Assembly (NCBI GenBank): GCA_028283655.1
Contig: JAPWKE010000003.1
Coordinates: 1,674,001 to 1,738,000, forward strand
Reading direction: 5' to 3'
DNA from: Acidobacteriaceae bacterium
GTDB lineage: Bacteria; Acidobacteriota; Terriglobia; Terriglobales; Acidobacteriaceae
Length of the DNA: 64,000 bases
Both the position numbers and the translations under genes were made by a program. Shown here piece after piece: positions 24,001 through 58,504 of this stretch (positions within the stretch are counted from its first letter, which is position 1; each line of letters starts with the position of its first letter). Below the pieces are notes generated by a model. The model searched no databases. It was given only the letters and a program-made list of their open reading frames with translations, and was not told the DNA's origin.

Positions 24001-24799
24001 TGTTTTTAAAGAAAATATAGGCATTACCGTGGAATTGGTTCGTGCCCTGCTTGATGGAGAAATTCTCAACACCCATGCCCTGGAACTGAGCCGAGCTTCC
24101 GCTTGTTTGAATCTGCGTTTGATCCACCGATTCAATCGATAGGTTCTCAAGCTTGCGGCTATCGCCCTGTGAATCCACTGTCGTGAGCGGCACACCTTCC
24201 ATGTAAAGCTCATTCGTATTACCTGCGCCCGTTCCGTCAAACGTGCCGGAGCGACCGCCTGGCGTTGTGCCTGGAAGCAAGGAAGCAAACGCAGTCGGAT
24301 CACGCGGATTGGAGCTTGTCATCGTTACAGGAAGCTCAGAATAAACATCATTTTCAATTGTTCCGCCAAGCACGGCATTTGCCGTCTGCAAAGCCGGCGG
24401 AGCCGTCGTGACAGTCACCGTATCGCTGACCTTACCCAAAGCCAGTTTCGGATTGAACGTCGTCGTCTGCAGCGCGTCGACGCTGACATTCTCCTGCACC
24501 AGCTGCGAGAAGCCCTCTACCGTCACCGTCACCGTGTACTTCCCTGGTGGCAACGGAGACACAACGTAGTATCCCGAGCTGGTCGAGTTGCGCGATATCA
24601 CGACGTTGGTAGACGTGTTCGTCACGTCCACCTTAGCTCGCGGAACGCTTGCTCCATCGGGGTCCAAAACGGTGCCAGAGATGGCACCTTGTCCGGTGAT
24701 CTGCGCGTCCATCGAGCGGACCGCAAAGATCATCCACGCCACTGAAAAAGCAAAGGAAATGCAAAAAAGTGCTCTGAGGTGCTTCTGCAACGTCTTCAT
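21077..24799 (-). CDS. Oar-like TonB-dependent outer-membrane receptor
   Basis: A 1240-residue receptor, the longest of the four in the window. A signal peptide (FCISFAFSVAWMIFAVRSMDA) is followed by a carboxypeptidase-regulatory-like domain (about 37-130: GAISGTVLDPDGASVPRAKV, GYYVVSPLPPGKYTVTVTVEGF). A plug with NAVLGGTIENDVYSELPV and a barrel follow, ending in KFNF. ATG 24799 has only a weak purine tract upstream. It sits directly downstream of the DUF4450-like gene on the same strand, after that gene's terminator. Co-occurrence with a GH28 and other exported carbohydrate-active proteins suggests an oligosaccharide ligand, which is inference from neighbours. Confidence 0.93.
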   Translation of the reverse strand: MKTLQKHLRALFCISFAFSVAWMIFAVRSMDAQITGQGAISGTVLDPDGASVPRAKVDVTNTSTNVVISRNSTSSGYYVVSPLPPGKYTVTVTVEGFSQLVQENVSVDALQTTTFNPKLALGKVSDTVTVTTAPPALQTANAVLGGTIENDVYSELPVTMTSSNPRDPTAFASLLPGTTPGGRSGTFDGTGAGNTNELYMEGVPLTTVDSQGDSRKLENLSIESVDQTQIQTSGSSAQFQGMGVENFSIKQGTNQFHGNAYIFFKNTILDSWGFFQKSALQPNAQGQMVPSPKTPENQNEISVSLGGPVLKNKLFFFGNYDRYHYRSVTNPTLQTIPTMRMRQGDFSEMGAAGYHIYDPTTQTACTAANNGVACATPFSYNGVADVIDPSKISPIAKAWAANLPAVTSSGITNNYLSGRKVGNDNWAYTGRVDYTISDRQQLAFISNGGTHLFSPYDYGATSVLPYPYTNGTDVNEKTSNDIVKHTYTFTPHVVNQARMGYARFWTTVGNKTLGDPTFTATALGIGNLPQGLAGNTTPAASFSGGINTPEAFAAPTQYHEAVNTYTLADDLTWSKGHHNFTFGGNFQFLQFNQSAADSPSKPMNFAFTNTSTGGFDTDGNIDTASGASYASFLLGAVGSTSVYIQDFSTLGARYKAFSPYVQDDWKVTQNLTLNLGLRWDLYTPFREVNNRWSFFNPNVRNPATGNMGALSYIGNGAGTCNCTSPVNTWYKNFGPRVGFAWQVTSRDVVRGSFSIMYSHNGGVGGSNGGNYNGTGQVGLTVSTAFASSTQGEQPAFYLNPSLAAPYANSGLPAYNSVINRTSTANTGNYVGGPTASSLAYADPYLSGRAPYTESYNFGIQHLLAKDTTISLDWVANQSHFLYAQSRGVWENQLAPQYQVLGSLLKQLPSGVDTKTGQTYLAEAQAKLPGIGLPYGNFGGAQGTIGQMLKPFPQYSALTDTWGDIGNANYNALQITLKNKNWHGLNYTLNYTFSKTIDDIAGVRSGYAIPNNVIDGGGGTTQANRIDRSVSAGNIPNLLHIFGTYTIPYGTMGHAGYQNHLTRALFGGWNLSYIFSKTSGAPLSIAGVGCLTPGSCYPSYQPGYTGNVRINGGFSSVHTVSQVKSTVFLDKNAFAGNPTTQGGKPQIGTPGNYGYNFGNAPRTAPYGLYNIGTYNLDAGIKRTFPIYRELKFSIQGDCFNVTNHVQFGGLGTSLASPTAFGLFSKQSNSARDWQLAAKFNF

Positions 24800-38200: not shown

Positions 38201-38581
38201 CGTCGCGACATTGACCTCGTTGGCACGCACACTCACAACCTGGCTCACATCGCCAACCTGTAGCGTAAAATTCACGCTGTGCGGAGCTCCTGCATTCACC
38301 ACAACCTGCAGTTCTACTGCCTTGCGGAAGCCGTCTTGCTGTGCCTCAACATGGTATGTACCTGGCACCAGAAAGTTCAGCAGGAAGTTGCCCCCTGCAG
38401 AGGTCACGCCTTTGGTAATAACGCTCGTCGCATCGTTTGTCGCAGTGACATGGACACCGCTCACTACAGCGCCGCTTGCGTCTGTAACGGTACCCGTAAT
38501 TTTTCCGGTATTCATCTGAGCGAAGAGATTTCGCGAACACCCGAGAAGGAAAATCGCGCACAGTAAAGCCTTGCGTCGCAT
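35234..38581 (-). CDS. Oar-like TonB-dependent outer-membrane receptor
   Basis: A 1115-residue receptor from ATG 38581 (a GTG two codons upstream is also possible; AGGAG fits either). After the signal peptide (ALLCAIFLLGCSRNLFAQ) come a carboxypeptidase-regulatory-like domain (GKITGTVTDASGAVVSGVHV, LLNFLVPGTYHVEAQQDGF), a plug (SQTFSHKDLDTLPNLDRNP) and a barrel ending in the terminal aromatic LRLSF. It lies 48 bp after the DeoR regulator gene on the same strand and is followed by a strong terminator. The arrangement suggests that the regulator controls uptake of its own sugar ligand. Confidence 0.94.
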   Translation of the reverse strand: MRRKALLCAIFLLGCSRNLFAQMNTGKITGTVTDASGAVVSGVHVTATNDATSVITKGVTSAGGNFLLNFLVPGTYHVEAQQDGFRKAVELQVVVNAGAPHSVNFTLQVGDVSQVVSVRANEVNVATETSELSQTFSHKDLDTLPNLDRNPLYQMNLIPGANNDVGSGNYGSNGDESGSAIGQSRPQLASIGGVDANANTIYIEGVPNREPQNAYISVTPPIEGVQEVQVYTGKYNAEFGFSGSAVVNIITKSGSNDFHGAAFEFLRNEATDALNYFAGDSAKTPFRRNQFGGALGGPILKDKLFFFVDYQGTIAKTSSPGYTSAPTAKMLAGDFSELYIQGSHDDAGNVYGQIYDPATRQFDVNGNVISATPFANNVIPATRWDSAAAAMNAAKIFGVANLPGISENLKYIATSKGTVHQADGRIDFNRSSRDRIFFRYSVLDAVADNSTDVNQFFQNGSADSKTFNQNMQLSDLFSFSATKLNELRLAFNRSNVRTSTKGNSQSWNNSFGIPNGNLGDSGTQGLAEFNMQGVPGISQPDWVGYIVSNTIAVTDNFTWVKGKHTIKLGTNLNHVVSVSADTIGGDNPRGAFTFSEAMTSYDGLGYDGGGNSDNALAVQPIGYPSFLLGNMTASARARFVNGAPYQTFWQNAWYVQDDYKVSSSLTFNVGLRYELITRPVERHNRESNWDTRTNELVVATANNRSPSMNLDVKNWGPRVGAVWSPDHGKTSVRAGYGTSYWMAYWSGPLTILGLTYPNYAKAVYLTPNNLSPTLTLSTDGLPIANAQYDTSGNLVLPDNALIRGVSPDWKNQRVDQSTLNVEREIRPGMIVDIGYLNVRGSHNNHSTNINQAPPVAQGVDYSTKRPLYSKYPQLGDLPISQSVAGSWYDAITARFAANIGSSTYINASYAHGRNFANGNNLDQGNINQYYGPTQQDIAHIFNAQLRTALPVGRGKAYLGHVNRFVDAVIGGWEYSALLHIRSGTRFDVTTNDTTSLNNGQTNRPDRNGNGTLSHPTVAKWFDASAFSVHTDSMTYGTAGVNPLHADGQQQLDSSLSKLFELVNGYHLEFRVDAFNTFNHPNFAAPDSVIGDSAVGQVTSTSTDNRRLQLALRLSF

Positions 38582-38629
38582 AAACACAGTTCTCCTAAAT
38601 TGGATCTGTACGGATAACCTTCTCGGGTG

Positions 38630-44463: not shown

Positions 44464-45681
44464 CTAGTTGCTTGCCGCGCTGGTTTCATAGGTAGCAACT
44501 TGTGCCTGCACCTTCTCGCCATCAGAGAGACCGGTGTGCCGACCCACCACCACCTGATCGCCCGACTTCAGGCCAGACAGTACTTCCAGTCGTGTCGCGG
44601 TCTGTAGTCCCGTAGTCACCTGCACAACGTGGATGATGCCATCACGAACAACATAAGCTTGCTCGACACTTGAGCCCAATCCGTCAACACCATCAATAGG
44701 AAGGCTTATAACGCCGGGCCGATCTGCGAGGTGGAGATGAACTTCGGCGTACATTCCCGGCAGCAGGCTCCCGTCTGCATTGGGCACATCCACCTGCGTA
44801 TCCATCGTGCGCGTGGCCATTTGCACGGAGCCAGCAAATCGCGCAATTTTCCCCTTTATAACCCTCGGAGGATTCGACACATTTACATCTACGGCCTGCC
44901 CGTTCTTAACCTCAGCCGCATCCGTCACCGGTACCGGTAGCGTGAGCCGAAGAACGTTGTACTGTGCGAGTCTCACTACAGGCATCGCCTGCGACTGCGA
45001 AGAGATACCTGCTTGGATCATCGATCCCGTATTCGCATAACGCTTTGTTACTATGCCATCGAATGGAGCACGAATCGTGGTGTACTGCATCATTGCGCTG
45101 GCACGAGCATATTCTGAATCCGCTGCGGACTTCGACTCCTGTGCTGCCTGTAACTCAGACTTTGCACTCGCAACTTGCGCCACGGCCTCAGCATCGCGAG
45201 ACTCCGCTACATCCACTTCCTGCCGGGGAACCAGCCCCTTGTTTTTCGTGGCAACATTATTGATGCGTTGATACGAGAGATGAGCGATCTTTGCCTGTGC
45301 TTCGGCACGCTGAATACCCGCCTGCGCGGTCACGACATTGGCCTGTGCTGCAGCCACGCCGGCTTTCGCCTTTTGCACCTCATCCTGAATTTCAGGGGCT
45401 TCCAATACCGCGAGCACTTCGCCAGCTCGTACATGCGAACCAATATCTACACGAATGCTGCGGACATATCCAGCAACTTTCGCCATCACGTCTACATCCT
45501 GAAAAGGCTGAAACTCCGCGGAGAGCACGACATTATTTTGCAACGTAGCAGGAGCAACTATCGCCACCGGGACCGTCGGAGTTTCGGCCACCGGCGGAGG
45601 AGCCGATTTGCAGGCCGTAAGAAAACTGGCACAAGAAGCGGTCACAAGACCGATTGCAAGAGCGCACCCTTTGTTTGCCAT
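44464..45681 (-). CDS. RND periplasmic adaptor (membrane fusion) lipoprotein
   Basis: A 405-residue adaptor from ATG 45681; the longer frame begins at TTG inside the TolC-like gene. A lipoprotein signal with lipobox LTAC (Cys near 24) anchors it to the membrane. The barrel-sandwich hybrid halves (VDVMAKVAGYVRSIRVDIGSHV near 65-85 and MMQYTTIRAPFDGIVTKRYAN near 195-215) flank a coiled-coil hairpin rich in Ala, Gln and Lys. A beta-barrel and membrane-proximal domain follow. It links the RND pump to the TolC-like channel. The three genes run in the order channel, adaptor, pump. Confidence 0.95.
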   Translation of the reverse strand: MANKGCALAIGLVTASCASFLTACKSAPPPVAETPTVPVAIVAPATLQNNVVLSAEFQPFQDVDVMAKVAGYVRSIRVDIGSHVRAGEVLAVLEAPEIQDEVQKAKAGVAAAQANVVTAQAGIQRAEAQAKIAHLSYQRINNVATKNKGLVPRQEVDVAESRDAEAVAQVASAKSELQAAQESKSAADSEYARASAMMQYTTIRAPFDGIVTKRYANTGSMIQAGISSQSQAMPVVRLAQYNVLRLTLPVPVTDAAEVKNGQAVDVNVSNPPRVIKGKIARFAGSVQMATRTMDTQVDVPNADGSLLPGMYAEVHLHLADRPGVISLPIDGVDGLGSSVEQAYVVRDGIIHVVQVTTGLQTATRLEVLSGLKSGDQVVVGRHTGLSDGEKVQAQVATYETSAASN

Positions 45682-45695
45682 ACCGTGTGGTCCTT

Positions 45696-47006
45696 TCAAT
45701 TCAAAAGCCCTGCTGCGAAATCGAGTTCTGCACGACGTGTGAGATAGGTGTAGTTCGCATCGGCAAAGCTGATCTCCGCAGAAGTCTCATTCACCTGCGC
45801 TTCGTTCAACTCAACGATGCTGCCAAGACCAGAGTCATAGCGAGCCTGTGCCAGACGTAACGCTTCTTTGCTTTGCGTCACGAGACGCGCCGTCACATCA
45901 AGGCTTTGGAATGCTTCATTAGCGCGCTGCCAGCAATTACGAACCTGCTCGGTGACTTCAAGATGAAGCTCTTTTACATCATTCGCACGTGCCATCGCCT
46001 CGGACTCGGCTTCAGCGCGACGAGCAGCGAACAGACCACCATTGAAGATGGGAATGTTGAGGTTGAATCCGACTGCGGCATAGTTATCGTGCAATGTGTG
46101 GTCGTGATAGGGGATTTGCCCAGCAGTGCCGCCCAGGCCAAGCGTGGGGTAGGCGAGGCGCTTGTCTGCCGAAGCAAGCTGCTGCGCTGCATGCTGTTCA
46201 GATTCAGCCGCGTGAAGGTCTGCACGCTGGCCTTGCGCAGTGGATTGAAGATCGTCTGGGCTTGGCGGAAGAGCCGCGGGCGCATCAGGATTAATCAGCG
46301 GAATTTTAATTATTTGCGCGGCACCCATTGCCGTTGCAAGATGAGCGCGCTGCTGTGCCACGTCGCTCTTGGCCCGTACGACAGCGAGGTCCGCTTCGCT
46401 TGCCAGAACTTCTGCAAAGTTCACATCAACCGTGGAACGAAGTTCGTTCTGAGCGAGAGCATTCAATTGGCGAGCAACGAGATGCCGATTTGATTGTGCT
46501 GCTTCTGCGGCACGCAAAACCGCCTCTGCTCCGAGTACTTGATAGTAGGTAGTACGAACGTTGAGACGAACCCGCGCTTTCGTCAGCGTGGCAAGGTCAT
46601 CCTGCGCCTGTGCGTTTGCACGGGAACTGCCAACCAATGCGCTTGTGCGACCAAAGTCGGTGACGAGTTGCGTAAGCTGTCCCCCGTAGGCGAATCGATC
46701 AGATATGGCTGAGGTGGTGAGTGCACCCGCCGCCGTAGAGCTACCTGTGTCAGCAACCTCAACACCAGTAGCGTTGAAGCTCGCCGTTGGAAAATACGCC
46801 GATCGCGTCTCGCGAACTCTCGCCTTAGCCGCCCGCGCGCGTAATTGCGCTGCCATCATCCGAGGTTGATTTGCGACCGCGATAGACTCTGCCTGAGAGA
46901 GCGACAATGGCACTGAAGCCGTCTGCACTTGCGGCTCTTGTGCATACAAATTTGAAGAAGTAATAGCAAAGGCAAAGGCAAGAACGAGCGTTCTGGTCCA
47001 GAACAT
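45696..47006 (-). CDS. TolC-family outer-membrane efflux channel
   Basis: A 436-residue outer-membrane protein with a signal peptide (LVLAFAFAITSSNLYAQ) and the long Ala/Gln-rich helices of the two TolC repeats (about 35-215 and 250-430). Typical phrases are LSLSQAESIAVANQPRM, GGLFAARRAEAESEAMA and LVTQSKEALRLAQARYDSGL. Its start codon overlaps the DUF190 gene stop as TAATG, so the two are coupled. It should be the exit duct for the adjacent RND pump. Confidence 0.95.
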   Translation of the reverse strand: MFWTRTLVLAFAFAITSSNLYAQEPQVQTASVPLSLSQAESIAVANQPRMMAAQLRARAAKARVRETRSAYFPTASFNATGVEVADTGSSTAAGALTTSAISDRFAYGGQLTQLVTDFGRTSALVGSSRANAQAQDDLATLTKARVRLNVRTTYYQVLGAEAVLRAAEAAQSNRHLVARQLNALAQNELRSTVDVNFAEVLASEADLAVVRAKSDVAQQRAHLATAMGAAQIIKIPLINPDAPAALPPSPDDLQSTAQGQRADLHAAESEQHAAQQLASADKRLAYPTLGLGGTAGQIPYHDHTLHDNYAAVGFNLNIPIFNGGLFAARRAEAESEAMARANDVKELHLEVTEQVRNCWQRANEAFQSLDVTARLVTQSKEALRLAQARYDSGLGSIVELNEAQVNETSAEISFADANYTYLTRRAELDFAAGLLN

Positions 47007-47365
47007 TAAGCGATCACCTTTTCCGATCCAGCGATGCTCTTCAATATCTCAGTGGGATGAGCCTCGACCAGGCCGTCAGTGACAAGATCCAGCAACGCGG
47101 GCATGATCGCCTCAACCTTTTCTGGTACCTCGATAAAGATGATAATGACGGGGAGATGCAATCCTGAGACATCTCCCTCGTCGCTCTTATGCAGACGTCC
47201 ATGCGAGCCGAAGCCCGCATACGGATGAATCACGGTCGCACCACCAACCCCAATGCCCTTTTCCTGAAGGAATAGCAGTATCTCATCGCGCAGGAAGCCA
47301 TGCTTGGCACCTGTATCTTTATTGAGATAGATCGTTACTTTGATAGCTGGTCCAAGTGGCAGCAT
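47006..47365 (-). CDS. DUF190 (PII-like) protein
   Basis: A 119-residue cytoplasmic protein of the DUF190 family, small ferredoxin-like proteins that form PII-like trimers. Typical features are KVTIYLNKDTGAKHGFLRDEI at the N-terminus, GATVIHPYAGFGSHGRLHKSD in the middle and LPVIIIFIEVPEKVEAIMPAL. Such proteins are often found beside transporters and may bind a nucleotide to control them. A strong GGAGG precedes ATG 47365. It is embedded in the RND operon and coupled to the TolC-like gene by TAATG, so control of the efflux system is a reasonable but untested idea. Confidence 0.9.
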   Translation of the reverse strand: MLPLGPAIKVTIYLNKDTGAKHGFLRDEILLFLQEKGIGVGGATVIHPYAGFGSHGRLHKSDEGDVSGLHLPVIIIFIEVPEKVEAIMPALLDLVTDGLVEAHPTEILKSIAGSEKVIA

Positions 47366-47410
47366 GAAACGCCTCCGTGATCGTGAAATGGACTATTGGT
47401 GGAAAGTTCT

Positions 47411-48169
47411 CTACAGCTTCGACTCGAGCAGAGCCGTCGTATGCTTCCAGATCTTAGGTGTTCCATGCGTCGACACCAGAACGATGCGAGATGCATCAAA
47501 GCGTGTCAACGAGGTCTGCGAGAAGCCGTAGAGTCCGCAAGCGGAAGCCGAGAAGACAGATACTGGCTGCTCTGTACCCCCTGCATCGCAGCGCACAGCG
47601 TCCCTTGCATTCGCCAGCAAATGTGCGAAGGTACCGCTTTTCTTGTTGTAACCAACGACATCGCCGTTTGCGTCGCGGATCTCATTCTGAGAGGGCGTCA
47701 ATAGATCGCCACCAACCTGTGTCGTCGTGGCGAGAGAGTCAAGGTCACTAGCCCTTGGCTCTTCTGCGCTCTCAGTAGCCAGAGGACTCGCCATCGCGCG
47801 CAAAGAAACATGCAGAGGAATGCTCTGTCCCTGCACCTCAAGTGAGTCGATCTGAATCTCGAGCGCTCCGGGTTTCTGCTTTGCGTACGGAGTGCTGTCG
47901 TAAGCGAAAGCCGTGGATGCGACAACGTGCCCCTTGACGACTGCTCCGGACGCAACCTTCCGCCCATCAGCTAGGTGAATATCTTGTATCGTCTTTGCCA
48001 AGACCACGTCGCCGGGCTTTACATGCACGGCACTGATCGTCTTGGTGAACGTGATCGGCAGCGTTGCCTGATCCGGCAGATGGGCAGGGCTAGCGGTAGC
48101 GGCATGGCTCTGAGCAGTCAAATCACTGGCCAGAACCAGCAAAAGCGGGGCAAATTTGAGAAACACCAT
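47411..48169 (-). CDS. Secreted protein of unknown function at the head of the RND operon
   Basis: 252 residues from ATG 48169, which has AGGAG 5 nt upstream; the frame is open 39 bp further. A signal peptide (FLKFAPLLLVLASDLTAQSHA) precedes a beta-rich domain with ISAVHVKPGDVVLAKTIQDI, LADGRKVASGAVVKGHVVAS and GALEIQIDSLEVQGQSIPLHV. The pattern recalls SAF/TrbI-like beta-barrel folds, but I do not recognise a named family. As first gene of the operon divergent from the two-component system, it may be an envelope sensor or accessory to efflux. Confidence 0.75.
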   Translation of the reverse strand: MVFLKFAPLLLVLASDLTAQSHAATASPAHLPDQATLPITFTKTISAVHVKPGDVVLAKTIQDIHLADGRKVASGAVVKGHVVASTAFAYDSTPYAKQKPGALEIQIDSLEVQGQSIPLHVSLRAMASPLATESAEEPRASDLDSLATTTQVGGDLLTPSQNEIRDANGDVVGYNKKSGTFAHLLANARDAVRCDAGGTEQPVSVFSASACGLYGFSQTSLTRFDASRIVLVSTHGTPKIWKHTTALLESKL

Positions 48170-48215
48170 GTCGACTCCTCTTGCTTGGTACAAGACGAAG
48201 TGGAACATCTTCTTT

Positions 48216-48244
48216 CCTTACAGAATTCTGACATTTCCCTTACA
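48216..48244. promoter_or_regulatory. 22-bp-spaced direct repeat in the divergent efflux/regulator promoter region
   Basis: CCTTACA occurs at 48216-48222 and again at 48238-48244, exactly two helical turns apart. Both lie in the 136-bp region between the efflux operon and the response regulator gene. Direct repeats with this period are typical of OmpR/PhoB-family binding sites, so this is a candidate site for the adjacent regulator. Confidence 0.5.
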
Positions 48245-48305
48245 AATAGGAAGGAGCAAGCTCTTTTCGTCTCAGTGTTGCCTATCATTGAGAGAGGAGA
48301 CACGC

Positions 48306-49013
48306 GTGTCCAACGCATTGCAGCAGTCACACATCCTCGTCATAGAGGACGACAACAAACTGGCAACCGCGCTGGTCTCCGGCATTGAGGCGGAGGGTTA
48401 CCGCGTCTCTCGTGCGTCCTCAGCAGAGGAAGGCTTCTTCCTGCTTCACAGCAATCTCCCGGACCTGCTCCTGCTAGACGTCACGCTGCCCCAGAGGAAT
48501 GGTCTCGACTTACTACGGCAGATCCGCCGAGATCACATCGACGTCCGCATTCTCATGCTCACCTCGCATAACACCGTCGAGGATCGCGTGGAAGGACTGA
48601 ACCTCGGAGCAGATGATTACCTCGGTAAACCGTTCTCGTTTCCAGAACTACTCGCCCGCATCGGTGCTCTACTGCGTCGCATTCTTCCGGAAAAAGTATC
48701 TGATGAACTTTCCATCGCAGACCTTCGGCTAAATACGCGCACGCGTGCCGCTGTGCGAGCAGGCAAGTCCTTGGAACTCTCACAACGAGAGTTCGATCTC
48801 TTGCTTTATCTAGCTGAGAATGGCGGCCGTACAGTGTCGCGCGAGATGCTCGCACGACATGTCTGGAAGGAAAGTTCTCGCTTCACCCCTCTGGATAATG
48901 TGATCGACGTCCAGATGGCTCGCCTCCGCAAGAAGGTCGACGACGATCATTCCGTTAGGCTTCTTCACACAGTCCGCGGCCTTGGCTTCAGCCTTCGGGA
49001 GCCAGAGGCATGA
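48306..49013 (+). CDS. OmpR/PhoB-family response regulator, GTG start
   Basis: A 235-residue regulator. I start at GTG 48306, which has GAGAGGAG about 6 nt upstream; the open frame reaches further but into the divergent promoter region. The receiver shows the acidic pair in LVIEDDNKLA, phosphoacceptor Asp58 (LLLLDVTLPQ), Thr in LMLTSHN and Lys in YLGKPFSF. The winged-helix output domain (about 135-232) has LELSQREFDLLLYLAENGG and VIDVQMARLRKKVD. It overlaps the kinase gene by ATGA and diverges from the RND operon, as in CusR/CzcR-type systems. Control of the pump is inference from this layout. Confidence 0.95.
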   Translation: MSNALQQSHILVIEDDNKLATALVSGIEAEGYRVSRASSAEEGFFLLHSNLPDLLLLDVTLPQRNGLDLLRQIRRDHIDVRILMLTSHNTVEDRVEGLNLGADDYLGKPFSFPELLARIGALLRRILPEKVSDELSIADLRLNTRTRAAVRAGKSLELSQREFDLLLYLAENGGRTVSREMLARHVWKESSRFTPLDNVIDVQMARLRKKVDDDHSVRLLHTVRGLGFSLREPEA

Positions 49014-50449
49014 ACTGGCGTTTTGCAAAGCAGATTCGTAGTCGCCTGACCATCTGGTACATCACAGTTCTTGCCATTGTGCTTGTAGTGTACGTCGTAC
49101 TGGTCTTCTCTTTTCAATACGGCTTCGTACACAACCAAATCTTCCACGACGAAGTACAGGATGTGGTCACAGTCGAAGGCCTACTGTACTTTGATAAGAG
49201 CGGGCACCTTGAGCTTGAACAAAGCTACTTCAGCCATCCGCAATCGCACCTGCTGATTGATCGCTTGATGGAGGTGCGTGATCCATCAGGAGTGATCCTC
49301 TACAAGACACCTAACCTCAACGGCGCGTCACTGGGCGGCCCTGTAGTACCAAACGAAGGTTCGAAGAGCTTCAATCCTCGCATCGTGAGAATGTCAGATG
49401 GCACTCACATTTCGGTAATAAGCCACGTTCACACCCTCAAGGGGAAAAAACTCCTCATACGTCTGGGATACAGCCTTGCTCCTTTTCGAGAGCGAATGGC
49501 ACAGTTCCTCGGGCTGTTACTGATCGCTTTGCCCATTGCTCTCGTCATCGCAGGTTTGGCAGGCTACCAGATTGCCAAAAGAGCCTTCAAGCCTCTCGAA
49601 GAAATGGCTCAAAGAGCAAAACTCATTACAGCCCGTAACCTTCACGACCGTCTCCATATCGAGAATCCCGATGATGAACTCGGACATATGGCAGCAGTTC
49701 TTAACGAACTTTTGAATCGTCTGGATGAAGCGTTTTCACAACTCCACAACTTCACCGGGGACGCCGCCCATGAATTGCGCGCTCCCATGGCCGCAATCCG
49801 TACCATCGGTGAGGTTGCGTTGCGCCGAGAAGAGATAGGTATCAACGATAAAGAGTCAATTGCCAGCATCCTTGAGGAGACCGCGCGGCTCGATGAAACC
49901 ATCGGAGGACTTCTACTACTAGCCAAAGCAGAGTCAGCACAATCCGCCGGGCCAAATACATTCTCGCTCGTGGGAGTTGTCAACGAAGTCACAGAGATAC
50001 TCGATGTGCTCGCCGACGAACGAGAGATTCGGCTCGTCACGCAAATCAACGACACGGCCAGCCTTGCTTTGACCGGTGATCGCAGCCTTATTCGCAGCGC
50101 GGTGATGAACGTTATTCATAATGCGATAAAGTTCGCGCCAGACGGCTCGGTTGTCACAGTTGTATACCGCATCGCGCACGATCAAGGCGAGCAAATCGAG
50201 CTAGTGGTTCAAGATGAGGGCCCCGGTGTGGATCATTCGGAACTAGATGCGATCTTCGGTCGTTTTTACACGAGCCCGCGAAAGCAGACGGCAGCTAACA
50301 GCGGTACCGGTCTAGGACTATCAATCGTGCAGTTGGTTGTGCAGAGGTCAGGCGGCCAGGTCTTCTTCGACCCGAACGCTCTTGTGGGAGCGCGCTGCGT
50401 CATTCGTTTCCCCGCCCATACTAGACAAGAAAACAATATCCCCGTGTAG
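49010..50449 (+). CDS. Sensor histidine kinase, partner of the divergent efflux regulator
   Basis: A 479-residue inner-membrane kinase. TM1 lies at about 15-35, a periplasmic sensor at 36-165, TM2 at about 166-186, and a HAMP domain at about 187-245. His254 lies in the H-box DAAHELRAPM. The N-box (NVIHNAIKFAP), G1 (VQDEGPGVD), F-box (FGRFY) and G2 (GTGLGLSIVQL) are intact. The overall form resembles heavy-metal sensor kinases of the CusS/CzcS group. ATG 49010 overlaps the regulator stop codon by 4 bp. Confidence 0.95.
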   Translation: MNWRFAKQIRSRLTIWYITVLAIVLVVYVVLVFSFQYGFVHNQIFHDEVQDVVTVEGLLYFDKSGHLELEQSYFSHPQSHLLIDRLMEVRDPSGVILYKTPNLNGASLGGPVVPNEGSKSFNPRIVRMSDGTHISVISHVHTLKGKKLLIRLGYSLAPFRERMAQFLGLLLIALPIALVIAGLAGYQIAKRAFKPLEEMAQRAKLITARNLHDRLHIENPDDELGHMAAVLNELLNRLDEAFSQLHNFTGDAAHELRAPMAAIRTIGEVALRREEIGINDKESIASILEETARLDETIGGLLLLAKAESAQSAGPNTFSLVGVVNEVTEILDVLADEREIRLVTQINDTASLALTGDRSLIRSAVMNVIHNAIKFAPDGSVVTVVYRIAHDQGEQIELVVQDEGPGVDHSELDAIFGRFYTSPRKQTAANSGTGLGLSIVQLVVQRSGGQVFFDPNALVGARCVIRFPAHTRQENNIPV

Positions 50450-50488: not shown

Positions 50489-52828
50489 TCACCTGACGGA
50501 AGATGTCTCGCGGTTCTGCATCTCCTTCAACTGCTCCCAACGCTCATATTGATCCTTCTTTTCGGTATCAAGATCCTTATATCCCTGCAGCCAAAACCGG
50601 AACCAGTCAACATCCCCTTGCTGCGACGCAAACACATCCGCAGGCATAGAGACAACATGAGTTGCGTAAGGCAAAGCTATTAAGTCTACAGGCTTATGTA
50701 GAGCCCTTAGACCGGCGTAGGTTTCCCAATCAGTCAGCATCCACTCAGGGCTTCGCGTTTCGACACGTACCGGGGTTCTCACACGATAGAGGTTGAAGAG
50801 TTCGCTTTCTTGTTTGAACGCCTCGAGAGCCTTACCAAGTGGATTCCCGCCATAGTGTAATGCCCATTGATTCAGAACTGCATTGTTGGGCGAGGCATCG
50901 ACACTCTCCAGGTATCCCATGACTCCATAGGTGAAACCATTTGCAATTGTGGCCGCCGCAAAGAGATCTGGCTTCCGCGTTACTGCGTACATGACGTTGT
51001 CACACGTTCTGCTAAATCCAATGATACCGACACGGCGAGGATCGATAAGCCCCTCACCTGTAAGCTTTTCAATGGCTGCTTCATACCCTTCGAGCGCTGC
51101 AGCAGTCCCCTTCTTCAACGCATCGTTCTTGGGCACTGCCGGCTCTCCAGCCTGCAGCACCATGAGCCCATCATTGGCCATTGCCTGAGCAGCAACCGCC
51201 GTCGCATATGTGCCATCCACGATGAAGAGATCATGACGGTAAGAACGAGCTTCAATCACCAGCGGATATCGAAGATTCGCCTGAAAGTTGGTCGGCTTGA
51301 TCAAAATGCCATGAACCTCTCGCCCTTCCGCGTCCCTCCACAAGAACACTTCGGCATGGCCAAAGTCGATGCTCTTGAAGTTTGGGTTTGGATCCCAGAT
51401 CTGCTTGTAATCAGTGGATGCATCCAGCCTCACGAAAAGCGCGGGGGGCGTATTCAAGTCCTGACGAACAACAACTTCGATAGGGTTCGTAGGAGTCTCA
51501 CTAGAATGCGCTTCAGAGGAGGCAATAAACATCGGATGATCCCGATCCAATGGGTAGGTCTCAGGCCCCGGCCCTTGCGCGGTGTACCGAACGTTCAGCA
51601 CGCGATGAGTCCAGTCCGTTTGTATAGTCTCCGGAAACCAAGAGTGCAGCTCATTGAGATGATTGCGTTTTAGCGCCGTAATCACAGTCCACGAGCGAGT
51701 CTGTGGGTTGCACAGCACAGCATACGCAGTGCTCAAGCGTTCCTTCTGTTTAGATTCGGCCACACCATCTAATGGCAACATCAGTCCCGTAAGTACTACC
51801 GATTCTCCCTCAGGAGACCACGATACTTCTGTTGGTCCTAGGAACTGCAGTCCCCTCCCCAGGGGAGCATCGATAAGAGGTACCACCGCCCCGGTCTCAA
51901 GGTTCACTAAGACCATCTCTTCGGGTACGTCTGTATCAAGCGCCTGCTGAAGCAGCTTAGGGGAGGACGCGACAATCTTTCTGGTAGCTGAAGCTGGCTC
52001 GTATCTCTCCCATCCCTTTGGAACATCCGTAACAGCTCGCGCCACTACAACATATCGGCCATTTGGAGAGGTCACAAGCAGCGTCTTTCCATAGTAGCTA
52101 TTGATGCGTTCTGGTTTTCTTGTTGAAGCATCGAGGATCTGATGAACTTGGCCTCGCTCGGATACCCATAACTCCTGCCCATTGGGGCAGGATATGCGAC
52201 CCGTCTCGTCTAGGAGTGTATGCATCGCCATGCCAGTCCCCACGATCACCCGCGAACGAGGATAGGTGGGACATGGAAGCGCAACGGAGTAAGGTATCCG
52301 ACCTCCGCCAAGCTCGAAGCTGGCGATGTTCTGCCCCGGCGGAGTGACTCGGAAGCTCTTTTTCGTAGAGATGCTGGCTCGGTACAGATGCCAATAGGCA
52401 GTGCTATCTCTTCCGAGGAAGTAGAGATCACGACTATCTTGCGACCATCTCAAAGAACGCACCATGGCTGCACCATCCCCAGGCTCAGTCTGGTTTACGC
52501 CTTTGAATCGTGCGAGTATCCGTGGCAGTGCTAGTCTCCCGATATTAGGATGGACAGCAAATTTCTTCACCGCCTGACTATCGAAAAGCCAGAGCGTCGA
52601 TTCAATCAAGTTCTCTTTGAGAAGACCGCGAGTCGTAACGACAACAAAGAACTTTTCATCCGGAGAGAAACTAGTAACGCGTCCCGAAGCTTCAGGATCG
52701 GGCTCCGTAAAGCGTTGCATAGCGATGGAGTCTTTTACAGTAAAGTGCTGCTGTTGAGCTTGGGCGGAGACGTGAAGAACTGCCACCGCCACGAAGATGG
52801 CTGGTGCCCAGAATTTGTAGCGGTGCAT
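50489..52828 (-). CDS. Secreted S9-family hydrolase resembling lasso-peptide isopeptidases
   Basis: A 779-residue exported serine hydrolase. A signal peptide (FVAVAVLHVSAQAQQ) is followed by a beta-propeller-like N-terminal half (about 40-520) and an alpha/beta-hydrolase C-terminal half. The nucleophile is Ser606 in GIIGFSRTC and His724 (PYATHVV) is the likely catalytic His. The acid is uncertain: Glu690, Glu695 and Asp700 are candidates. From memory, the GFSRTC elbow and the C-terminal ASQQGDVDWFRFWLQG and EQYxRW-like tail read like the Atxe2-type S9 isopeptidases that cleave imported lasso peptides. It lies 53 bp after the TonB receptor gene on the same strand, so uptake and cleavage of a peptide ligand is plausible. 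Ordinary dipeptidyl-peptidase activity is the alternative. Confidence 0.82.
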   Translation of the reverse strand: MHRYKFWAPAIFVAVAVLHVSAQAQQQHFTVKDSIAMQRFTEPDPEASGRVTSFSPDEKFFVVVTTRGLLKENLIESTLWLFDSQAVKKFAVHPNIGRLALPRILARFKGVNQTEPGDGAAMVRSLRWSQDSRDLYFLGRDSTAYWHLYRASISTKKSFRVTPPGQNIASFELGGGRIPYSVALPCPTYPRSRVIVGTGMAMHTLLDETGRISCPNGQELWVSERGQVHQILDASTRKPERINSYYGKTLLVTSPNGRYVVVARAVTDVPKGWERYEPASATRKIVASSPKLLQQALDTDVPEEMVLVNLETGAVVPLIDAPLGRGLQFLGPTEVSWSPEGESVVLTGLMLPLDGVAESKQKERLSTAYAVLCNPQTRSWTVITALKRNHLNELHSWFPETIQTDWTHRVLNVRYTAQGPGPETYPLDRDHPMFIASSEAHSSETPTNPIEVVVRQDLNTPPALFVRLDASTDYKQIWDPNPNFKSIDFGHAEVFLWRDAEGREVHGILIKPTNFQANLRYPLVIEARSYRHDLFIVDGTYATAVAAQAMANDGLMVLQAGEPAVPKNDALKKGTAAALEGYEAAIEKLTGEGLIDPRRVGIIGFSRTCDNVMYAVTRKPDLFAAATIANGFTYGVMGYLESVDASPNNAVLNQWALHYGGNPLGKALEAFKQESELFNLYRVRTPVRVETRSPEWMLTDWETYAGLRALHKPVDLIALPYATHVVSMPADVFASQQGDVDWFRFWLQGYKDLDTEKKDQYERWEQLKEMQNRETSSVR

Positions 52829-52881
52829 GAAGGACCTCCCGATCCGAGGAAGAACGGAGTATGAATGACCAGGACAGATCG

Positions 52882-55800
52882 CTAGAAATTTAGCTTGAGC
52901 GCGAACTGCATGGATCGCGCCCCACCTTGCTGATATTGCGAGGCGACAGTGCCTAAGCTCGCATTGAGCATCTTCGTTGTTTGCCCGAAGGTTGCATCCG
53001 AGTACGTTGGATCGATATAGCCAAAGTTCGGATGATTGAGAATGTTGAAAGCCTCAGCCCGAAACTGGAGAGCGAACGCATCATGGAGACGAAACTCTCG
53101 ACGAATGGCCATGTTCACCTGGTTCTCCCCAAAGCCTCGGACGAAGTTTCGCGGAGCCGCTTCCCCACTACAGACCGAGGGCAGGCAGAAGGCAGCGTGA
53201 TTGATGATCCGTCCGCCGGGATATTGTGATCCGTAGAGATAGGTCGGTTGATTAGCAACCAGATTCAGAGTGCCGTTGTACTCGCTACCGGTCGCCGGAT
53301 CGATCGCAAGACTCCCATTCGGCATCACGGGATAGCCTGTGCGGACGATCAAACGCAGGTCACTGCCCCAGCCATTGACAAGTTGCCCCACAAGAGAATG
53401 GCCTTGAAGGCCAGGAAGGTCCCAGCTCACGCCAGCCTGCAGGTTATGCCGGATATCGAAATCAGCGTTCCCCCGCTGCAAAGGCAAATTGTAGGACTGC
53501 GATCCGAAGTCCAGTGCGTGCGACCAGCTATACGAGGCCAGAGCTTGAAAGCCTCGTGCAACTGAACGCTGAAACTGAAGCTGCAACGCCTGATAGTTCG
53601 AGGTGATTCCACTCGCGGGATACTCGACAAGATTGAAGTTTGGGTTCAGTTTCGACAACGAAAACTCTTGCAGATTCAAGAGACGGCGTCCGTTACTGCC
53701 GACGTATGAAGCCGTAAAAGACTGCCTAGAGCCAAACGCCTGCTGAAGGCTAACATTCCATTCGAGCGTGTACGGCAGTTGCAGGTGTGTCGGGAAGGCA
53801 ATGATGGCCGCAGAGTTGTAAGGCGCCTTGACCGTCAGCGGAACGTTCAGCTCGCTCTGGTTATAGGGGATGGTAACTCCGTACCCGTAGGTATCAGCAA
53901 AGAATCCTAGACTGCTGTAGCCAAGCGCGGCAATATCATTCGCTGTGTCGTAGAAGACCCCACCACCCGCTCGTAGAACGGTCTCGCTTCCAGGACTTTG
54001 GCGCACAGTCCAAGCAGCTCCCAGCCGTGGCGCAAAGTTGAACCAGCCCGTCTTCCACAAGGGAGTTCCCTGAGGCGCCAGTTGAAGAGAGCTCGGATTC
54101 GTAACACTCCCGAGCACAGTATAGGCATCGTCACCATGCTGTTCGGTAGGTGCCGGGTCGTCATCCCATCGCATCCCGAACGACAGACTCAACTTCGGGT
54201 GAGGCCGCCATTCATCCTGAATGAAGAGCGCAGTCTCCACGAAGATCGGAGTAGCTGCTTTGCGAGCGACAAAGATAGTGACCTCCGGCGCACCGGCCAG
54301 CATGGACGTCGTACTCTCAAACCCCGCATACGGCTCGGAGGTAGGAGGCATGAGCTTCGTCTTAATGCGCCGATAGTCGACTCCCATCTTAAGGTGGTGA
54401 TGTCCCACAGTCAGGCTAAGCGTATCGACCAGGTTCCACTGCCGACCGGCCGATCCGCCATAAGGCTGTCCAAAAAGCGTATTGCCAAGACCCGATATGT
54501 CGAGGAGGATAAACGGCTCAGTAGCAGCAGCGGAACCCCCAACCGCTGCGACAAGATCGATTGGCGTCGCCCCACCAAAGTTATCGATCTTACTGAGCAT
54601 CGTTTCGTCAGCACGAGAGTAGCCGAGTCGGAACTCATCAGTAAGATTCGGCGATATCTGATCCGTCGCTCCGACGGTGTAGGTGGACGCATCGCTGCTC
54701 GTTGTTGTTCGCGCAAGATTCGGCCGCGCGACAGCAGAACTCGGGGTCTCACTGAAACGGAAGAAAAGAGCAAGCTTCGGACTGACCGTATGATCCAGTC
54801 GAACGCTCGTGGAATCGATCGAGCTCGGCAGCGAGAATGGGGCGATGAATTGAGCAAGGCTGGGGCTTGCGGCTGTTCCATAGTCAATTCCCGTAGGGAG
54901 TGGAAACGCATTAAAGATCGGACGAACGGCGGCAATCGCCTGCTGTCGCATAAAAAGGTCGGGAACGTATTGGATCGTCGAAGCAGTTGGCTGCGTCAGA
55001 CGGAGCCCTTCATAAGAGACGAAAAAGAAGCTCCGGCTCTCACCGTTATAGAGATGCGGAATCCTGATTGGACCGCCAACCGTTCCTCCAAAGTCGTTCT
55101 GCCGCAGGGCTGGGATGGCCGTGCCATAGTGATCGTTGAACCAATCGTTTGCATCGAAGTAGTTATTCCGCAGGTAGTCAAAAATGCCGCCGTGAAGCGC
55201 ATTAGTTCCAGACCTTGTCCCGAGGGAAAATTGTCCACCGGGCGACCGCCCATATTCTGACGAATAGGTTGAACTCTGCACGCGAAACTCCTGCAGAGCA
55301 TCAACGGAGACAAGCGTCTGAGTCGTACCTAGTGCCGTACCTCCGCTAACCGTACCTCCGGTTGCTGACTGACCGATGCCGCTTGCATATCCCGCTCCAA
55401 TATTGGCTGAGACACCGTCGACGATGTAGTTATTCGATTGGGTTCTCTGGCCGTTTACGCTAAAGTCTCCGCTCGCTCCAAGGAGCTGTGTTCCGGTTGC
55501 CTGCGGGCTTTGGTTAACGATTCCAGGCGTCATTGAAATCAGATCCTGAAAGCTTCTGCCATTGAGTGGCATATTCTCGACGAACTTCCTGTCGACAACC
55601 GTGCCTACGGCAGCATCTGTCGTGTTCATCTGCATCCCACCAGCATCCACATCCACATGCTGAGATGCCTCACCAACCTGCATTCTGAAGTCCAACCGAA
55701 CCTGATCGGCAACGTGAAAAACGACGTTCTCTTTCGTCAGGGTCTTGAAGCCCGGAGACTGAACCGTCGCGTCATACTTACCCGGATCGAGAGCATCGAT

Positions 55801-55986
55801 TCGATAGATCCCATCGCCGTTCGAAACACTCTGCCGGCGAACCCCAGTATCCTGGTTACGAAACTCTATATGAGCCTTCGGAATAACAGCTCCGCTCGGG
55901 TCTTGCACCGCGCCTCCGACTGAAGCGGTCTGGGCGTAGGCGGCGAAAGGACACAGTAAGAGAAGAGCAAAGAAGAAGTGTTTCAT
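52882..55986 (-). CDS. Oar-like TonB-dependent outer-membrane receptor under candidate ECF control
   Basis: A 1034-residue receptor. A signal peptide (FALLLLCPFAAYAQ) precedes a carboxypeptidase-regulatory-like domain (ASVGGAVQDPSGAVIPKAHI, GIYRIDALDPGKYDATVQSPGF), a plug (AAVGTVVDRKFVENMPLNGR, VNGQRTQSNNYIVDGV) and a barrel ending in KLNF. ATG 55986 has AAGGAAAC upstream. 43 bp before the start lies a candidate promoter that matches one in front of the ECF sigma gene. It sits between the sigma/anti-sigma genes and the S9 hydrolase gene. I infer a peptide ligand from the hydrolase. Confidence 0.94.
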   Translation of the reverse strand: MKHFFFALLLLCPFAAYAQTASVGGAVQDPSGAVIPKAHIEFRNQDTGVRRQSVSNGDGIYRIDALDPGKYDATVQSPGFKTLTKENVVFHVADQVRLDFRMQVGEASQHVDVDAGGMQMNTTDAAVGTVVDRKFVENMPLNGRSFQDLISMTPGIVNQSPQATGTQLLGASGDFSVNGQRTQSNNYIVDGVSANIGAGYASGIGQSATGGTVSGGTALGTTQTLVSVDALQEFRVQSSTYSSEYGRSPGGQFSLGTRSGTNALHGGIFDYLRNNYFDANDWFNDHYGTAIPALRQNDFGGTVGGPIRIPHLYNGESRSFFFVSYEGLRLTQPTASTIQYVPDLFMRQQAIAAVRPIFNAFPLPTGIDYGTAASPSLAQFIAPFSLPSSIDSTSVRLDHTVSPKLALFFRFSETPSSAVARPNLARTTTSSDASTYTVGATDQISPNLTDEFRLGYSRADETMLSKIDNFGGATPIDLVAAVGGSAAATEPFILLDISGLGNTLFGQPYGGSAGRQWNLVDTLSLTVGHHHLKMGVDYRRIKTKLMPPTSEPYAGFESTTSMLAGAPEVTIFVARKAATPIFVETALFIQDEWRPHPKLSLSFGMRWDDDPAPTEQHGDDAYTVLGSVTNPSSLQLAPQGTPLWKTGWFNFAPRLGAAWTVRQSPGSETVLRAGGGVFYDTANDIAALGYSSLGFFADTYGYGVTIPYNQSELNVPLTVKAPYNSAAIIAFPTHLQLPYTLEWNVSLQQAFGSRQSFTASYVGSNGRRLLNLQEFSLSKLNPNFNLVEYPASGITSNYQALQLQFQRSVARGFQALASYSWSHALDFGSQSYNLPLQRGNADFDIRHNLQAGVSWDLPGLQGHSLVGQLVNGWGSDLRLIVRTGYPVMPNGSLAIDPATGSEYNGTLNLVANQPTYLYGSQYPGGRIINHAAFCLPSVCSGEAAPRNFVRGFGENQVNMAIRREFRLHDAFALQFRAEAFNILNHPNFGYIDPTYSDATFGQTTKMLNASLGTVASQYQQGGARSMQFALKLNF

Positions 55987-56028
55987 AGTTTCCTTCGAAC
56001 GACTGGATTGGATTGAATGTGCTCATCC

Positions 56029-56056
56029 ATAAGTCGCTCAGACATCCAGCTTTTCC
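56029..56056 (-). promoter_or_regulatory. Candidate ECF-sigma promoter of the TonB receptor gene
   Basis: On the minus strand, GGAAAA (56056-56051), a 15-nt spacer and GACTTAT (56035-56029) match the element in front of the ECF sigma gene in sequence and spacing. ATAAATTTC precedes both. The receptor start is 42 bp downstream of the last base. Confidence 0.6.
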
Positions 56057-56075
56057 GGAAGAAATTTATAAAACG

Positions 56076-57824
56076 TCACATTTTCCGAAGGCCGTGCACC
56101 TCCACGACTAGATGCGATAGCAACTGTTGAATCTGTGGGAGTGCATCCCTCGGAGATACGGGAATTTCACTCGTCGTAAAGACGCTGCGGAACAAGCGAT
56201 CAGTACTCCTAGCTGTACTCAAAGCATCTACAGATTCATCCTGCCAGCTTGTGGCTGAGTCATCCGATTCAGGCCGCGTCGCTGCCACATGAAACAACGT
56301 GTTCAACGGAGATATCTGATCCTGCAGCGCACGCAAAGCGGATGCCGCCGCGGCCCCGTGATCCGCTACGATGGAAGCGAGTTGCGCTCGATCCGCAGAA
56401 GAAAGCGCGCGCTCTCGCTCAGGAGGAAACTGCGCCTGAAGATTCCGCAAAGCATAAAGATGGGCTAATACCATCGAGCTTTGATCGAGCAGCTTATTTG
56501 TGAATGCTTGTTCTTTCTCCGCACTTCCAAAAAACTTAGCAAGCGTTTCATCTTCGACATCTGGGGCGACCATGATCTTTGCAGAAGCTTCCGACAATGG
56601 CCTGCTGATCGCAGGCGTCATCTCTCCCTTACGACGAACAGGGGCGGTAGTTTGAACAGTCACTCCCGGTTCGTTCTGCAAAGCCATTCGAATCTCATTC
56701 TGTCGCTCAGGCGGAAGCTGCCACACACTTACGTCAACTCGTTGGCTCGTGTGCGTGACCGTGACGGGTTCTCCGAGATCCGCATGCAATTGATGGAGAG
56801 TCATCAGAACGTTCAACTGCACTGCATCGAGATTAATCTCTGGTGAAAGCACAGTCTCAGCAACGGACCTCCCAACAGAGGGCTGTGCACGGCCATTTAC
56901 AGACCCAGAGCCCGGTTCAAGCTCAGCCAAAAGGGAATATGGAAGAGCACTCACCGCAACGAGCGATAAATTATCTTCCGTAATTTCGAAGGTTGCATCC
57001 TGAAATTGAAGAGTCATCTTTGCAATGCGCCAGGTCTCAGGTTGAATGCGTAAGCTCACCGAGGATAGTCCATCTGCAGAAAGCTCTGACGTCTTAGTGA
57101 AGCTAAGATCCAACTCCTTCCCTTCCGACTTGATAGCTGGCTCTCCGCCTGCAAGTTTTCTCCATGCATCTACGGTTGATGAAGACAACGGAAGATCGAT
57201 CGCAACACCATTCGCCGCATACTCCTCTCGAAGTGCGATCACTGCAGATTCCTCACCTTCAGCCTCTGAGCTTTTCCATACTGTGGCTCTCCGCGACTTC
57301 CACACATCCATTGCTTCAGACTGGCTTTGGTTCTGCCCCTTGAGCAACCTCCGGATGTGCACATGCTGCTTAATGACCTGAGCCGTAGGGATTTCATTGT
57401 GCTTGTCGTTCGCAACACAGACCTGACGCAAAACTTCTTTCGCGGACACCGTATGCGTATCGAGCTTGAAGACAACGAGCACCGCTATCACCGCGATCAA
57501 TGCAGCAAAAGCAATCCCTCTCGCAGGCATAAAGAATGACTGTAGAGCTTCGCGGAATCGCACCCATGACTTCTTCGGCTGTGGCTCAGTCTTTGCCATA
57601 AGCGCGTCGAATGACGGCCATGCAGAAGGCGGTTGAGGCATCGATGGAGCAAAGCTCTCATGGTGAGCGTCCAAAATCACGGCAATGTCACGCTCAAGCC
57701 GTTCTATCTCGGTTCGGCAAGTCCAGCATGAGTGCAGATGCTGCGCTGTGTTGGCGATCTCGGCCTTTGGCAGTTCCCCATCGAGATACGAAAGCAATTG
57801 TTGCGGTGTGAGATGGCTATTCAT
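56076..57824 (-). CDS. Large zinc-finger anti-sigma factor
   Basis: 582 residues from ATG 57824, which has AGAGG at good spacing; the GTG three codons upstream does not. The N-terminal zinc-finger anti-sigma domain (about 5-50) carries His29/His31, Cys33 and Cys36 in AQHLHSCWTCRTE. A single transmembrane helix lies at about 102-119 (RGIAFAALIAVIAVLVVFK). The remaining ~460 residues are periplasmic and unrecognised, far larger than the usual 100-200, and may sense an envelope signal or contact the receptor. The gene overlaps the sigma gene end by 8 bp. Pairing with the ECF sigma factor is clear from position and domain. Confidence 0.9.
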   Translation of the reverse strand: MNSHLTPQQLLSYLDGELPKAEIANTAQHLHSCWTCRTEIERLERDIAVILDAHHESFAPSMPQPPSAWPSFDALMAKTEPQPKKSWVRFREALQSFFMPARGIAFAALIAVIAVLVVFKLDTHTVSAKEVLRQVCVANDKHNEIPTAQVIKQHVHIRRLLKGQNQSQSEAMDVWKSRRATVWKSSEAEGEESAVIALREEYAANGVAIDLPLSSSTVDAWRKLAGGEPAIKSEGKELDLSFTKTSELSADGLSSVSLRIQPETWRIAKMTLQFQDATFEITEDNLSLVAVSALPYSLLAELEPGSGSVNGRAQPSVGRSVAETVLSPEINLDAVQLNVLMTLHQLHADLGEPVTVTHTSQRVDVSVWQLPPERQNEIRMALQNEPGVTVQTTAPVRRKGEMTPAISRPLSEASAKIMVAPDVEDETLAKFFGSAEKEQAFTNKLLDQSSMVLAHLYALRNLQAQFPPERERALSSADRAQLASIVADHGAAAASALRALQDQISPLNTLFHVAATRPESDDSATSWQDESVDALSTARSTDRLFRSVFTTSEIPVSPRDALPQIQQLLSHLVVEVHGLRKM

Positions 57825-58335
57825 TGGCGACACCTCTCAGGCGTTCCACTGCAATGGATAACCACTCCGCCGTTGTCGATATACTCACGCCAAGTATCTC
57901 TGCGATAGCGCGATAACGCATTCCCTGCATCCTCAAATGAATTCCTAATCTCTGTTCCTTGGGAAGACTCGCCATAGCCTTTGCGACTCGCCGCAATCGC
58001 TCACTGCGGGCCGCATTTGCTTCCGGCGTCAATTCTGGAGACCGCAGGCTTTCTAAGATGGCCGGCGCTGCATCGAGTTCGACCCACATAGATCGCCCCT
58101 CTCTGCGCCAGTAATCGACGGCTGACTTGGATGCCACGCTATATAGCCAGGCCTGCTCGGACTGGATCATCATTCCCCGATCCACAGCAGTGAAGAGCTT
58201 GACAAAGACATCCTGAGTGACGTCTTGCGCGGTCCTGGGATCAAGTCCCTGGCCAACCAGAAAACGGTAAATTGCAAGCCGATGAGCCTCATAGAGAACA
58301 GAAACCCGCTCCGATGTAGTCGGAGTTGTGCTCAT
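57817..58335 (-). CDS. ECF-type RNA polymerase sigma factor
   Basis: 172 residues from ATG 58335, which has AGGA 7 nt upstream; ATG 58359 and a TTG at 58371 are in frame but poorly placed. Region 2 (about 10-75) shows VLYEAHRLAIYRFLVG, AQDVTQDVFVKLF and LYSVASKSAVDYWRR. Region 4 (about 110-165) shows LPKEQRLGIHLRMQGMRYRAI and ILGVSISTTAEWLSIAVERLR. It is co-translated with the zinc-finger anti-sigma factor. The matching promoter elements before its own gene and the TonB receptor gene suggest it controls both. Confidence 0.93.
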   Translation of the reverse strand: MSTTPTTSERVSVLYEAHRLAIYRFLVGQGLDPRTAQDVTQDVFVKLFTAVDRGMMIQSEQAWLYSVASKSAVDYWRREGRSMWVELDAAPAILESLRSPELTPEANAARSERLRRVAKAMASLPKEQRLGIHLRMQGMRYRAIAEILGVSISTTAEWLSIAVERLRGVANE

Positions 58336-58398
58336 CGCGGCATCCTGGTTTCTCGGCATTGCTCGATACAAATTGGCCCCGCCTATTGGTCGTTACGT

Positions 58399-58426
58399 AT
58401 TAGTCGGTTGGGATACACCATTTTCC
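58399..58426 (-). promoter_or_regulatory. Candidate autoregulated ECF-sigma promoter
   Basis: On the minus strand, GGAAAA (58426-58421), a 15-nt spacer and GACTAAT (58405-58399), directly preceded by ATAAATTTC, match the element upstream of the TonB receptor. The sigma start codon is about 63 bp downstream. Confidence 0.6.
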
Positions 58427-58504
58427 GAAATTTATTTTTCCCGTTCTCCCTTGATTCTGCGCTCCATTCGGTTTCACCTCTGCAGAACTTTCGTCAGATC
58501 GATC

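Follow-up and report, generated by a model that had tools for sequence, protein, structure and literature searches.

A candidate orphan receptor-isopeptidase module, unlinked to lasso peptide synthesis genes, in an Acidobacteriaceae genome

Genes for lasso peptide isopeptidases have been described as co-located with lasso clusters (PMC9266682; PMC13352647). The characterised enzymes cleave only their cognate lasso peptide, and the role of isopeptidase-containing clusters has been called "enigmatic", with siderophore-like cargo and concentration-control models on offer (PMC9266682). The locus described here lies in an Acidobacteriaceae genome (G000), in a 64-kb stretch of DNA (C3:1674-1738 kb) referred to hereafter as the window. 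It resembles the AtxE2 (astexin) clusters of Asticcacaulis excentricus (PMC9266682) in the predicted fold of its hydrolase, the catalytic Ser and His and a C-terminal DWFRFWL motif, as well as in the adjacent receptor gene and sigma/anti-sigma pair. Unlike the astexin clusters, the window locus has no lasso genes, its anti-sigma factor is not FecR, its receptor has a CarboxypepD_reg domain and no STN domain, and it belongs to an acidobacterial branch. Orthologous or paralogous receptor and hydrolase genes, in the order sigma, anti-sigma, receptor, hydrolase, are also present in acidobacterial lasso clusters (L034, L037, L052 and others), but those modules face a lasso operon and have another type of sigma/anti-sigma pair. 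A literature search, with subscription papers mostly outside its range, returned no report of orphan, unlinked, regulator-swapped isopeptidase modules.

As shown in Table 1, the module consists of four tightly packed open reading frames, in agreement with the initial annotation, which had read four consecutive minus-strand genes for a sigma factor, an anti-sigma factor, a receptor and a hydrolase. That annotation carried the module to 58435, and 64 bp of this extent lie upstream of the first possible sigma start; its "giant" anti-sigma factor is giant in a relative sense, the open frames of the protein's kin being about 600-690 aa. Downstream, only 40 bp separate the hydrolase stop from the end of a plus-strand two-component gene pair, so that a convergent lasso operon would not fit. 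The adjoining DNA (44464-50449) holds HlyD-type and OEP-type efflux genes and this convergent pair, which is of heavy-metal type. A consensus scan for internal promoters, uninformative for those of the ECF type, gave no sigma-70-like hit within the module on the minus strand, and total sites were fewer than expected by chance.

Table 1. Genes of the module, with positions in the window
Feature	Length (aa)	Position	Strand	Remarks
ECF sigma factor gene	184	57817-58371	minus	Pfam Sigma70_r2 4.4e-10, Sigma70_r4_2 5e-07
Anti-sigma factor gene	585	56076-57833	minus	17-bp overlap with sigma gene
Outer-membrane TonB-dependent-type receptor gene	1034	52882-55986	minus	89 bp downstream of anti-sigma gene
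Secreted S9-type hydrolase gene	779	50489-52828	minus	53 bp downstream of receptor gene

Profile searches detected no lasso A, B1, B2 or C gene in the 64 kb of the window. A hidden precursor at the locus was considered and rejected, as the window contained neither a profile match nor a match to the precursor tail pattern described below. The absence of precursor, B and C genes recorded in the initial annotation is thus correct for the window and incorrect for the genome: the genome-wide search for lasso B and C genes that it had proposed found B1, B2 and C at C3:408-427 kb, about 1.3 Mb away. There the genome has one complete lasso cluster (L034), in which B1, B2 and C genes and a putative precursor are accompanied by a separate set of sigma, anti-sigma, receptor and isopeptidase-like genes. 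The proposal of a stand-alone system likewise holds for the locus, which is unlinked to lasso synthesis, and not for the organism, which has a lasso cluster and a paralogous module. The precursor of this home cluster was the only one found in a whole-genome search. Identity between window and home copies is 29% for the hydrolase, 55% for the receptor and only 27% for the sigma factor, so the window module is not a recent copy. The biosynthetic part of the home cluster (L034:10749-18576; G000:C3 ~418.7-426.6 kb) comprises the putative precursor, C, B2, a prolyl oligopeptidase, an APH-like kinase, B1 and a 517-aa protein that has no Pfam match and recurs in many related clusters. A third Atxe2-like match in the genome, at C3:1580109-1582089, is split over two frames (323 + 415 aa) and is possibly a broken S9 gene.

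The window hydrolase matched Pfam Peptidase_S9 weakly. Its best NCBIfam match was NF033523, the Atxe2 family lasso peptide isopeptidase equivalog (5e-50), with a score of 170.9 bits where the curated cut-off is 400; the home paralogue, which is lasso-linked, also scored below it (164.5 bits). Because the cut-off was missed, we place the hydrolase, on its sequence, in a sister acidobacterial branch and not within the NF033523 equivalog. Among PDB sequences, a single-sequence search ranked AtxE2 first (2.7e-20) and SpI-IsoP, the sphingopyxin I isopeptidase, next (1.6e-13). With a profile of the hydrolase family the values were 4e-70 for AtxE2 and 1e-42 for SpI-IsoP, compared to 1e-23 or weaker for ordinary S9 enzymes.

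Structure prediction gave a consistent picture. An AlphaFold2 model of the hydrolase (pLDDT 86.6, pTM 0.88) combines a beta-propeller with an alpha/beta-hydrolase domain and is nearest AtxE2 and SpI-IsoP; in a Foldseek search of 350,542 PDB chains, the top eight hits were the eight lasso isopeptidase chains. VIA Z was 31-33 for lasso isopeptidases, no ordinary S9 enzyme scored above 26, and the best VIA-align match was SpI-IsoP (PDB 5jrk, 5jrl; Z 32.9 over 584 residues, 19% identity). Identity to the solved lasso isopeptidase structures is only 17-21%. SpI-IsoP is cluster-linked and alphaproteobacterial, unlike the window hydrolase. In a quick tree, in which Asticcacaulis, Sphingopyxis and Xanthomonas rows stood in for the characterised isopeptidases, the hydrolases and the Pseudomonadota isopeptidase clade formed one side of a branch marked 100* (71 rows), and the ordinary S9 peptidases of related genomes fell outside it. 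The search against Atxe2-type and S9 enzymes and the tree that the initial annotation had called for therefore put the hydrolase on the isopeptidase side and not with the dipeptidyl peptidases, as that annotation had supposed, and its isopeptidase-like identity is well supported by tree, sequence profile and predicted fold.

The module might instead pair an ordinary periplasmic S9 peptidase, dipeptidyl or acylaminoacyl, with a generic Oar-like receptor. The S9 fold is common to both kinds of enzyme, and acidobacteria have many such receptors, three more of them in the window. Tree, profile and predicted fold nevertheless all put the hydrolase with the lasso isopeptidases and lead us to reject an ordinary S9 peptidase as its identity, and the receptor belongs to a lasso-linked clade, apart from the other receptors of the window. 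We consider this alternative highly improbable.

The GFSRTC elbow and the ASQQGDVDWFRFWLQG tail on which the resemblance to isopeptidases was originally based are both present as written. Ser606 and His724 were invariant in 52 homologues and align with AtxE2 Ser527 (the residue mutated in 5txe) and His638, respectively. AtxE2 Glu610 aligns with Glu695 of the hydrolase, a residue that is not conserved in relatives; Glu702 is Glu in 44 and Asp in 4 of the 52 homologues. From the alignment, Glu702 is more likely than Glu695 to be the catalytic acid. The C-terminal W/F motif is kept.

The regulatory genes are of a different kind from those expected. The anti-sigma factor gave an NCBIfam anti-sigma match (5.8e-07) and a weak zf-HC2 match. 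Read from the sequence, it has an N-terminal zinc-finger segment (HxxxCxxC, here HLHSCWTC), one putative transmembrane segment formed by a hydrophobic stretch near residue 110, and a long C-terminal part that is predicted to be periplasmic and has no family match. Domain scans of the window proteins found neither a FecR domain in the anti-sigma factor nor an STN domain in the receptor; both domains are present in the Sphingorhabdus and Nevskia modules. The FecI/FecR-type regulation suggested in the initial annotation was accordingly not confirmed, and the two missing domains rule out cell-surface signalling of the FecI/FecR/FecA type.

Kin of the anti-sigma factor were found in G048 (36%) and in four other receptor-hydrolase modules. 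In all, five hydrolase modules have the window-type anti-sigma factor (window, L038, L101, L168 and L191) and none of the five faces a lasso operon. The usual type, in contrast, occurred in 37 linked and 4 unlinked modules (p 5e-4 for the contrast with the window type, L168 left out). The five modules occupy five separate positions in the hydrolase tree, requiring five changes, and the association of the window-type anti-sigma factor with unlinked modules is therefore not one inherited event.

The receptor has Pfam CarboxypepD_reg and OMP_b-brl_4 barrel domains and a plug match (E 0.00032) just below its cut-off. It shares 65% identity with the lasso-linked Edaphobacter aggregans receptor (L052) and 63% with the G255 receptor, and in a quick receptor tree it falls within the lasso-linked clade, beside receptors of other Granulicella and Edaphobacter. 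Three more large receptors with the same general barrel are encoded in the window (17263-20817, 21077-24799 and 35234-38587) and lie far from the lasso-linked clade. The place of the hydrolase in its own tree differs from that of the receptor: its partner is L181 of G255, an orthologue with 48% identity whose module is likewise unlinked, the sole B2 of that genome being about 0.95 Mb away. Constraining both hydrolases to the clade of the receptor cost 86 log units (AU p 8e-7), which rules out, for the hydrolase, joint descent with the receptor from the receptor's nearest clade. By these sequence comparisons the module is a mosaic that appears to have been rewired, with its regulator exchanged.

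A mosaic of this kind might also be a lasso-module receptor and hydrolase repurposed to take up and cut a different peptide or depsipeptide. The long separate hydrolase lineage, common only to the window and G255, the disagreement between hydrolase and receptor histories and the replaced regulator are all in keeping with such a change of substrate. We think it quite unlikely, however, as the receptor is still close to a lasso-linked receptor and the hydrolase retains the catalytic Ser and His and the C-terminal motif.

The majority of related loci have sigma, anti-sigma, receptor and hydrolase, in that order, facing a lasso operon with B1 (PqqD), B2 (Transglut_core3) and C (Asn synthase-like), to which genes for a prolyl oligopeptidase and an APH-like kinase and the 517-aa gene are often added. 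Small putative precursor ORFs lie between C and the hydrolase, and their leaders, with the leader/core boundary read by eye from the sequence, fit the Ile/Val(-2) type described for Acidobacteriaceae lasso precursors (PMC10368454). The putative acidobacterial precursors share a C-terminal tail, Y-x-(A/S)-D-E, despite divergent cores (L034:10749-10883, L037:9780-9920, L041:12100-12234, L039, L040 and L043); the tail perhaps has a role in recognition by the receptor or the isopeptidase. One lone precursor-like remnant, ending ...NGAAYQADE (L168:15698-15916; G267:C3:979.7 kb), faces a window-type receptor-hydrolase module, and no B or C gene was found before the next module. This locus is possibly a lasso cluster whose biosynthetic operon was lost, leaving a fossil remnant.

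Linkage to lasso genes was common. Among 86 non-redundant hydrolases, 54 had a lasso C or B2 gene no more than about 10 kb away, all 54 with a receptor, and 14 were undecided at contig ends. The other 18 were unlinked despite at least 8 kb available downstream, a count that includes two betaproteobacterial loci with weak, divergent C or B2 matches that are probably linked (L099 and L104) and one with a B2 about 30 kb off in its genome (L171). Across 300 genomes of the family, 88 had B2 and 41 of these carried the hydrolase, compared to 9 of the other 212 (odds ratio 20); equivalently, B2 was found in 41/50 hydrolase carriers compared to 47/250 non-carriers (p 1e-17).

Some modules occur where no B2 gene was found at all. 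Open hydrolase and receptor genes are carried by G132 (99% complete), G102 (Paracidobacterium acidisoli, 97%) and G121 (98%), in none of which B2 was detected, and B2 was likewise not detected in Sphingorhabdus contaminans (G349), where the unit is sigma-FecR-receptor-hydrolase; to read this as a lack of lasso synthesis relies on one Pfam model and draft genomes. In three further genomes with no B2 the hydrolase is broken (G027, G299 and G312), and for this reason the orphan modules may be decaying leftovers. Units in Nevskia (L080) and Woeseiaceae (L070) are unlinked, but the genomes do have B2 genes at other places. The hydrolases of Pseudomonadota (Woeseiaceae, Sphingorhabdus, Nevskia and Novosphingobium) are near or nested in the acidobacterial branch, a placement that suggests horizontal transfer. 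Each has its own receptor gene beside it (L070, L078 and L080, ~4.8-12.4 kb; L088, 7.3-12.3 kb), with sigma and FecR-like genes also present in all but L088, and no lasso gene was matched within about 10 kb of these hydrolases.

The window module could serve as a second route, under its own sigma/anti-sigma pair and different conditions, for uptake or recycling of the home lasso peptide. Such use is conceivable because most genomes with orphan modules also make a predicted lasso peptide; several have a lasso cluster, and the present genome makes one predicted product. On the other side, the receptor is closer to those of other species (65%) than to the home receptor (55%), the hydrolase is only distantly related to the home copy, and modules exist where B2 was not found. 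The distance between the two hydrolases, taken with the cognate specificity of characterised isopeptidases (PMC9266682), makes it probable that the window enzyme has another substrate. We regard a home route as unlikely.

We lean instead to the reading that this is an orphan receptor-isopeptidase module for a threaded lasso peptide, most likely one other than the home product. Given that the receptor is more like those of other species than the home one and that there are modules in genomes without a detected B2, uptake of lasso peptides made by others is the most economical reading, and the modules in genomes where B2 was not found make consumption of foreign peptides more plausible. The receptor would bind a threaded lasso peptide and import it across the outer membrane. 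A signal passing through the zinc-finger anti-sigma factor would free the ECF sigma factor to transcribe the module, and the periplasmic hydrolase would open the isopeptide bond of the ring; the unknotted peptide might then be degraded or release a bound cargo. The substrate would probably be a lasso peptide of relatives such as Edaphobacter or other Granulicella. The module may have originated as the receptor-isopeptidase half of an acidobacterial lasso cluster that was split from synthesis and given a different regulator. In this scheme we infer import, signalling and its direction, isopeptide cleavage, the foreign substrate and any nutritional use or benefit.

Xenosiderophore receptors take up siderophores made by others. 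The logic proposed to be shared is that a receptor and a processing enzyme are kept without the biosynthetic genes, the difference being that the ligand here would be a lasso peptide. By this analogy, the best reading of the module is a "xeno-lasso" uptake and ring-opening system. More tentatively, and with slightly more doubt than belief, we suggest a class of stand-alone xeno-lasso modules, each with a regulator, a receptor and an isopeptidase and no adjacent synthesis genes, which would have arisen repeatedly in Acidobacteriota and be present in some Pseudomonadota to detect and import the lasso peptides of other bacteria and disarm or eat them.

A receptor and a ring-opening enzyme without adjacent synthesis genes, in some cases in genomes where B2 was not found, are natural "receiver only" tests of both the cargo and the concentration-control models. 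Such modules predict a lasso peptide worth capturing by non-producers, and they supply testable receptor-producer pairs, for example the window receptor against the lasso peptides of Edaphobacter aggregans and other Granulicella. If the reading is true, isopeptidase-type lasso peptides would be shared or pirated extracellular goods.
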